From a virus: DNA of 34,513 nucleotides. The position numbers and the translations under genes are program-made. The stretch covers positions 1 through 34,513 of the IMG/VR virus record IMGVR_UViG_3300034355_000047; one strand, given 5' to 3'. A model generated the notes under the pieces. It made no database searches. It was not told where the DNA came from and saw nothing but the letters and a program-made list of their open reading frames with translations. Shown piece after piece: positions 20,365 through 20,929 of this stretch (position 1 is the stretch's first letter; each line of letters begins with the position of its first letter).

Positions 20365-20392
20365 AGCCCCTACTTGCTAGGGGCTTTTTTTT
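20365..20392 (+). terminator. Intrinsic terminator after scaffold gene
   Basis: AGCCCCTA (20365-20372), loop CTTGC, TAGGGGCT (20378-20385), then an unbroken T-run to 20392. Perfect 8-bp GC-rich stem with U-tract. Ends the 15.6-20.3 kb transcript or lowers read-through into the capsid region. Confidence 0.9.
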
Positions 20393-20401
20393 ATGTACAA
20401 T
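20374..20401 (+). promoter_or_regulatory. Candidate promoter for the small RNA
   Basis: TTGCTA (20374-20379), 16-base spacer, TACAAT (20396-20401). The -35 overlaps the terminator hairpin loop and right arm. Transcription would start near 20408, at the 5' edge of the folded RNA described next. Match is good at -10 (5 of 6) and moderate at -35. Confidence 0.45.
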
Positions 20402-20407
20402 CCAAAC

Positions 20408-20501
20408 CGTTGTAGTCGTGTGCAACAGTAGAAAACCGTTACTCATGCATTGGCCTCCCTCGCCGGAGGACACGACCCAGTGCAGTAGTAACGGTTTTTT
20501 T
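20408..20501 (+). ncRNA. Putative structured small RNA with pseudoknot and terminator
   Basis: Predicted ~94-nt RNA. P1: AAAACCGTTACT (20432-20443) pairs with AGTAACGGTTTT (20487-20498), 12 perfect bp. P2: TGCATTGG (20446-20453) with CCAGTGCA (20477-20484), 8 bp with one G-U. P3: CCTCC (20454-20458) with GGAGG (20465-20469), loop CTCGCC. The 7-nt bulge ACACGAC (20470-20476), left between P3 and P2, is exactly complementary to GTCGTGT (20415-20421), which lies in the loop of a small GTTG/CAAC hairpin (20409-20412, 20423-20426). The RNA ends in seven T's. Promoter, pseudoknot and terminator together suggest an independent RNA rather than a plain terminator. No known family recognised. Confidence 0.55.
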
Positions 20502-20756
20502 ATTGTCTCGACTCCAGCCGCACCCCACGCGAAAGCAGTGCATTTACATGGATGGCTTGGGATAGAACATAGGGCAGCGCATCACCCCGCTGGTAACCCT
20601 ACCGAACTGTGTGCGAGGTATCGGGCAAGATAGAGGGACAAGGTGAGACAAGACCTCTATCGAATGAATCGCATCCTTATGGGGAAGCTAGTGTGCTTGC
20701 GCACATGGGCTTGGGGGAGTACTTCTCACCCTTGGGGAAGCTATGCCTAAAAATAG
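20502..20756. other. Gene-free stretch with hairpins and a direct repeat
   Basis: No convincing coding frame. TGGGGAAGCTA occurs at 20680-20690 and 20733-20743. GATAGAGG (20629-20636) can pair with CCTCTATC (20654-20661), and TGTGC (20692-20696) with GCACA (20701-20705). Function unknown; possible second RNA, protein-binding region or attachment site. Confidence 0.6.
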
Positions 20757-20787
20757 TTGACAACAAAGCAAAAGATATATATATAAT
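20757..20787 (+). promoter_or_regulatory. Strong promoter for the capsid operon
   Basis: Perfect -35 TTGACA (20757-20762), then TATAAT (20782-20787) at a 19-base spacer, or TATATA (20780-20785) at 17. Transcription would start near 20793. AT-rich surround with a TA run. It suits host sigma-70 polymerase and would boost coat protein above its neighbours. Confidence 0.75.
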
Positions 20788-20834
20788 GTGGCAAGGCATA
20801 TCTGGCAACAGACCCTTACCGCAGTGGATACTGA

Positions 20835-20879
20835 CGATTGGCTGGCGATACCAGCAAGCAATCGGCCCTGACTATCAGG
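20835..20879 (+). promoter_or_regulatory. Structured leader of the capsid mRNA
   Basis: Hairpin 1: CGATTGGCTGG (20835-20845) pairs with CCAGC (20851-20855) and CAATCG (20859-20864), 11 bp with a 3-nt AAG bulge and loop CGATA. Hairpin 2: CCTGA CTA TCAGG (20867-20879). Both lie between the promoter and ATG 20930, in a leader of about 135 bases. They may stabilise the message or control translation. Confidence 0.5.
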
Positions 20880-20929
20880 CTTACCGGCGCGAGAACCCTG
20901 TGTTTTTATCAACCGAATGAGGTATCCCA

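Follow-up and report, generated by a model that had tools for sequence, protein, structure and literature searches.

The 34,513-nt viral DNA analyzed here (the whole stretch is called the window below) carries, between its scaffold and capsid genes, a predicted small RNA, RNA1. Comparison with relatives strongly supports its fold, and it appears to be a real, previously uncatalogued RNA gene in a large phage RNA family. It is very probably an independently transcribed, pseudoknotted RNA, and, judging from its relatives, it occupies the first slot in a noncoding cassette of two, almost always lying directly before a second structured RNA, RNA2, which it probably controls or partners. The explanation that we favor, with rather better than even confidence, is that RNA1 is a stable, pseudoknotted small RNA doubling as a conditional terminator that gates RNA2; both the gating and the function are what we infer. 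The features in the window are as follows.

20409-20501, plus strand: RNA1, predicted pseudoknotted small RNA of ~93 nt (covariation, tests without pseudoknot selection, and covariance model [CM] match)
20409-20413 / 20422-20426, loop 20414-20421, plus strand: hairpin H1 (covariation)
20415-20421, plus strand: GTCGTGT in the H1 loop, which forms the 5' strand of the pseudoknot helix (covariation)
20470-20476, plus strand: 3' strand of the pseudoknot helix, the seven-base bulge ACACGAC, exact complement of 20415-20421
20432-20443 / 20487-20498, plus strand: outer stem P2, 12 bp, whose 3' strand runs into the U-run and forms the predicted terminator
20446-20453 / 20477-20484, plus strand: middle stem, 8 bp, closing around the inner hairpin (20454-20469) together with the 3' pseudoknot strand
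20454-20458 / 20465-20469, plus strand: inner hairpin, 5 bp
20444-20445, plus strand: 5' side (CA) of a 2x2 internal loop between the outer and middle stems, conserved in relatives
20485-20486, plus strand: 3' side (GT) of the same internal loop, conserved in relatives
20495-20501, plus strand: U-run of the RNA1 terminator, read in the sequence
20374-20401, plus strand: putative RNA1 promoter, with a weak -35 (TTGCTA, 20374-20379), a spacer of 16, and a -10 (TACAAT, 20396-20401)
About 20366-20392, plus strand: intrinsic terminator of the scaffold gene, outside the cassette; sibling L034, which lacks the cassette, has it as well
20518 to about 20735, plus strand: RNA2, second structured noncoding RNA (15-sequence alignment; aligned and covarying over about 20518-20701)
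20402-20736, plus strand: RNA1+RNA2 cassette between the scaffold and capsid genes, present or absent as a unit (gap lengths, L034)

The preliminary description of this locus had read nested stems of 12, 8, and 5 bp, a T-run closing the structure, a bulge fully complementary to an upstream loop, a TTGCTA-N16-TACAAT promoter before the first hairpin, and a second terminator just upstream. Each of these elements is present exactly as read, and the complementarity of bulge and loop is perfect; only the nesting was incomplete, since the 2x2 internal loop had been overlooked. The observation is accurate to the base and not chance. Pairing of the loop with the bulge within one RNA is, on the predicted fold, an H-type-like pseudoknot, in which a one-nt loop crosses the 7-bp helix. 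The RNA1 stretch has a folding energy of -48.9 kcal/mol, compared to a shuffle mean of -31.3 (z of -4.9, 0/200 shuffles), and it matches the CM with 81 bits, the window sequence itself being in the training alignment.

Is this pairing kept when the letters change? Searching viral contigs for the capsid gene yielded 80 loci, and nine RNA1 copies, including that of the window, lie between scaffold and capsid genes at such capsid-anchored loci; in each, the promoter, the hairpin, the terminator stem, and the pseudoknot persist although the letters differ. Among the capsid-anchored loci, a nested-only CM, which contains no pseudoknot information, gave these nine copies as its only strong hits, and all carry the pseudoknot. 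A pattern describing the terminator stem only matched at least 120 contigs in viral metagenomes; alignment A1 comprises the window and 53 of these contigs (54 sequences), pre-filtered for an exact pseudoknot, and, like all counts of relatives given here, this is a sample among the matches listed rather than a total, with redundancy reduced and relatedness remaining. In A1, 93.4% of cells are paired and the covariation score is 0.451, compared to 0.170 for shuffled and at most 0.139 for slid alignments. All 7 pseudoknot pairs form in 54/54 sequences, with 6 of the 7 doubly changed, and at three positions each of the four Watson-Crick combinations occurs; in H1, 99.6% of cells are paired and 4 of the 5 pairs have changed on both sides. 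G-U pairs also occur (one outer pair, for example, is U-G in 17/54), indicating that the RNA is the plus strand, because the opposite strand would have C-A mismatches in their place. The pseudoknot strand (A1 columns 16 to 22) shows the pattern GUNGNAN, an alternation of variable and nearly invariant positions.

Since A1 was pre-filtered for the pseudoknot, unfiltered tests carry more weight. When loci were selected by the outer stem only, complementarity of at least 7 nt between the upstream part, with its loop, and the interior of the stem, with its bulge, was found in 102 of 104 distinct loci, compared to 12% for parts combined across loci and 7% for shuffled interiors. When they were selected by the 5' half only, 91 of 94 complete loci had the exact complement together with the 3' strand of the stem and the U-run; the T-run by itself is retained in 92 of the 94, and the complement occurs in 1.7% of cross-sequence pairs. 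Unpaired changes in the loop-bulge helix beside a retained outer stem, which the preliminary description had named as the pattern that would speak against it, were looked for in the relatives, and what they show does not overturn the fold. With a hairpin loop that pairs outside its hairpin and compensatory changes in that pairing, RNA1 belongs with H-type-like pseudoknotted, terminated small RNAs. It does end in a stem and a U-run, as would a mere terminator with chance internal pairing; that reading, like that of a DNA-level element, is scarcely credible in view of the compensatory helix changes, G-U pairs included, and of a pseudoknot recovered without selecting for it, and both seem refuted as far as sequence comparison can refute them.

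The internal loop is conserved in the 5'-half-selected set, whose loci were not selected on it: its 5' side reads CATGC in 91 of 92 loci (CATAC in the other) and its 3' side reads AGY in 91 of 92. A few relatives elsewhere (e.g., L058 and L080) lack the loop. The linker between H1 and the terminator stem measures 7 to 11 nt in 85 of 88 relatives and is never shorter, which suits a tether within one molecule. In six loci (L097, L123, L139, L150, L158, and L168), an apparent second pseudoknot joins the linker and the inner loop (GATAATTGGT / ACCAATTATC in L097). The pairing sequence of the H1 loop is variable, with 26 distinct 7-mers, each complementary to a segment within its own RNA. Such variable yet self-complementary sequence is what self/non-self specificity would predict for an immunity or autoregulatory RNA like P4 CI or P1 C4, whose loop would pair with the bulge in a transcript still being made from that phage and so force termination, and covariation cannot separate intermolecular pairing from pairing within one molecule. 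P4 CI and P1 C4 are, like RNA1, small phage RNAs using short complementary segments; however, they pair with separate target copies, whereas both strands of the RNA1 helix reside in one RNA. The H-type geometry and the minimal linker length suit intramolecular pairing, and there is one RNA1 copy per record (46/46, weak second matches being the opposite strand of the same stem) with no second one found; we consider an immunity RNA very improbable.

A TATAAT-like -10 element ends 6 to 7 nt before the hairpin in 136 of 138 nonredundant RNA1 loci, accompanied by a weak -35, and this fixed distance predicts a transcript beginning with the first base of H1 or an adjacent one. A promoter at a fixed distance combined with an intrinsic terminator places RNA1, by sequence comparison only, among independently transcribed phage small RNAs; together with the covariation, it bears out the earlier proposal that a promoter and a terminator of its own serve an independent, pseudoknotted small RNA. 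Structured ends, such as 5' hairpins that bear on RNase E attack, should make an RNA stable, and both ends of RNA1 are locked in structure, so stability is expected from general knowledge. The GC skew of the window does not switch at the RNA1 locus.

The genes next to RNA1 vary among records and include those for terminase, replication initiation, RusA, PAPS reductase, portal, and capsid proteins. A type III antitoxin RNA (ToxI-like, with tandem repeats by a toxin gene) was considered and rejected, given the single copy per record and the varying neighbors, and a tRNA/tmRNA search of the region found none. Rfam 15 at the gathering threshold contains no family matching the window or RNA1 of its relatives, in agreement with the first impression that RNA1 is not a recognized family; at E values up to 10, the window gave sub-threshold hits only, nothing real. 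A blastn search with the window region and a typical RNA1 against 50,697 phage records returned nothing useful. Among phage records, only the metagenomic MW202484 (L332) has the RNA1/RNA2 pair, and there the region (MW202484.1, 33533-33892) is annotated as hypothetical protein UOF77725.1, a warning that such RNA loci get annotated as proteins. The outer-stem pattern gave 31 hits in 84,980 bacterial and archaeal genomes, only two of which (L216 and L224) look real by inspection; these are short contigs of betaproteobacterial MAGs that resemble phage loci, and a survey of the family of L224 gave no further copy (1/201). As the only cellular hits that look real are on betaproteobacterial MAG contigs, the hosts are probably betaproteobacteria.

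What lies downstream of RNA1? A noncoding stretch usually follows it, with a median of 414 nt to the next mechanically called ORF of at least 100 aa. In the window this stretch holds RNA2, whose 15-sequence alignment shows many compensatory pairs in stems and beyond which the cassette end was placed by comparison with sibling L034. A related RNA2 subfamily has its own loop pseudoknot (55/67 within the same RNA versus 15% across RNAs) and a terminator-like end. Matches to three RNA2 classes start 8 to 29 nt past the RNA1 U-run in 128 of 226 RNA1 ends. The intervening spacer seldom has a -10 element (TANNNT in 8 of 91, close TATAAT in 1), and RNA2 of the recognized classes appears to have no recognizable promoter of its own. 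Selection on RNA2 only revealed an RNA1-like pseudoknotted terminator upstream in 76 of 79 loci, at a nearly fixed distance and with a pseudoknot match of 7 to 15 bases even where RNA1 is unrelated in sequence; the same test succeeded in 1.7% when applied to other windows and in 5.2% when applied to shuffles. Some RNA1 relatives occur without RNA2 (e.g., L130). The stand-alone RNA of the preliminary description holds as an independent unit, but its close coupling to a structured RNA downstream had been missed.

This coupling bears on the possibility that RNA1 is purely trans-acting, a decoy or regulator of a host factor, with RNA2 a separate gene merely co-travelling. Its own promoter and terminator, its locked ends, and the diversity of its gene neighbors would agree with such a role, as would the lack of a long conserved unpaired segment, which favors protein recognition over antisense. 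We nevertheless regard a purely trans-acting RNA1 as rather unlikely, since RNA2 lies within 8 to 29 nt and has no promoter of its own and since unrelated RNA1 classes occupy the same position before the same RNA2.

Within the capsid clade, the gap between the scaffold and capsid genes is bimodal, at 235 to 253 nt without the RNA pair and 586 to 649 nt with it, and two further loci have 713 to 815 nt. No gap in this clade fits one RNA alone (contig-end-cut and smaller-gap loci aside), and sibling L034 represents an empty site, with the -10 region joined to the capsid promoter; RNA1 and RNA2 appear to be gained or lost together. Most siblings in the clade are without RNA1, and the capsid gene has a promoter-like TTGACA/TATAAT sequence whether the cassette is present or absent. 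A cis-acting antitermination element (HK022 put-like) or a terminated late-promoter leader (lambda pR'/tR'-like) for the downstream operon would likewise occur a single time in the genome, as a short leader that terminates soon after its promoter, but the neighbor genes differ widely, and an optional cassette beside a capsid gene with promoter-like sequence in either case makes this very improbable. The lambda 6S RNA or pR'-tR' leader is also a short RNA from a phage promoter, ended by an intrinsic terminator through which any longer transcript has to run. In lambda, late genes follow and the Q protein governs, whereas RNA1 precedes another structured RNA; we know of no comparable conserved pseudoknot in the lambda leader.

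Other known systems share single traits with RNA1. phi29 pRNA is a phage RNA with functional loop pairing, and a packaging RNA of this kind would fit the loop pairing and the position among head genes in the window; however, RNA1 has neither an Rfam match nor a constant link to packaging genes, is absent from most capsid-clade siblings, and stands beside non-head genes elsewhere, leaving this reading hardly any probability. Terminators of the ZTP riboswitch type also combine a pseudoknot with a terminator stem, but in RNA1 it is the loop of a 5' hairpin that pairs with a bulge inside the terminator, and no constant downstream gene exists whose ligand could be sensed. The pistol ribozyme, too, has a 5' hairpin with a pseudoknot-forming loop; it differs in strand order, the inner hairpin of RNA1 coming before the pseudoknot strand, and Rfam gives no match. 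A ribozyme reading of RNA1 found no support. Of the functions first listed for the element (regulatory, decoy, packaging, and catalytic), packaging and catalysis are thus without support, and the list is only narrowed. Finally, Betaproteobacteria-1 RNA (RF02932) fills the RNA2 slot directly 3' of RNA1 in L083 and the L089 record, but it is a downstream partner in only 2 of 46 records and is not RNA1; its CM matches neither RNA1 nor RNA2 of the window, and a search of one literature library found no paper naming it.

How might a terminated small RNA gate its neighbor? The fold, strand, promoter position, terminator, and RNA2 coupling are each supported by comparison among relatives, and on them the conditional-terminator explanation builds. 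The RNA1 promoter would start a transcript at or beside the first base of H1, whose loop would pair with the bulge inside the terminator stem, the outer stem and U-run acting as the terminator. Transcription would usually end there, yielding abundant RNA1, and would read through into RNA2 only under some condition, probably set by a factor that recognizes folded RNA1. The conserved WCAUGC/GCAGYW internal loop is the best candidate site for such a factor. No conserved antiterminator excluding the RNA1 terminator was seen by eye in A1; a protein-controlled switch would not need a mutually exclusive one. Against gating, RNA2 could be processed out of a longer transcript or start from a promoter of unusual type; the RNA1 relatives without RNA2 and those without the internal loop also speak against this explanation. 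More tentatively, and on balance doubtfully, the locus may be a protein-free, modular two-slot RNA system widespread in freshwater phages, in which a pseudoknotted conditional-terminator RNA and a structured effector RNA fill slots with interchangeable unrelated classes, a new RNA-only means of control or host takeover.

With RNA1, phage RNA genes gain a large family that had no name, linked to a partner slot in which one occupant, Betaproteobacteria-1, is an Rfam family of unknown function. That unrelated RNA classes are constantly paired, each in its fixed position, leads to a clear, testable prediction, namely, that the terminator of one RNA controls another.

Several further observations concern the cassette and its surroundings. 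RNA2 relatives occur in dozens of phages, with different classes filling the slot. In L334, L346, L348, L350, L360, and others, an unrelated RNA1 class precedes the same RNA2 class, ~200 to 300 nt before the RNA2 motif; it consists of a CGTCTGAGTGGCATCAGACG-type hairpin, pseudoknot matches of about 9 to 15 nt, and a GGGGTTTTT terminator. L285 shows an apparent natural deletion fusing the 5' half of RNA1 to RNA2, which may be an assembly error. Downstream of the cassette, window positions 20752-20929 hold the capsid promoter (TTGACA..TATAAT) and a leader, ~80 to 93% conserved over ~135 nt in most capsid loci and possibly a third structured RNA. At 20720-20752, CACCCTTGGGGAAGCTATGCCTAAAAATAGTTGA looks like what is left of the ribosome site and start codon (reading MPKNS stop) belonging to the gene 3' of RNA2 in other phages, and this apparent remnant suggests an origin of the cassette by import from a setting of that kind.
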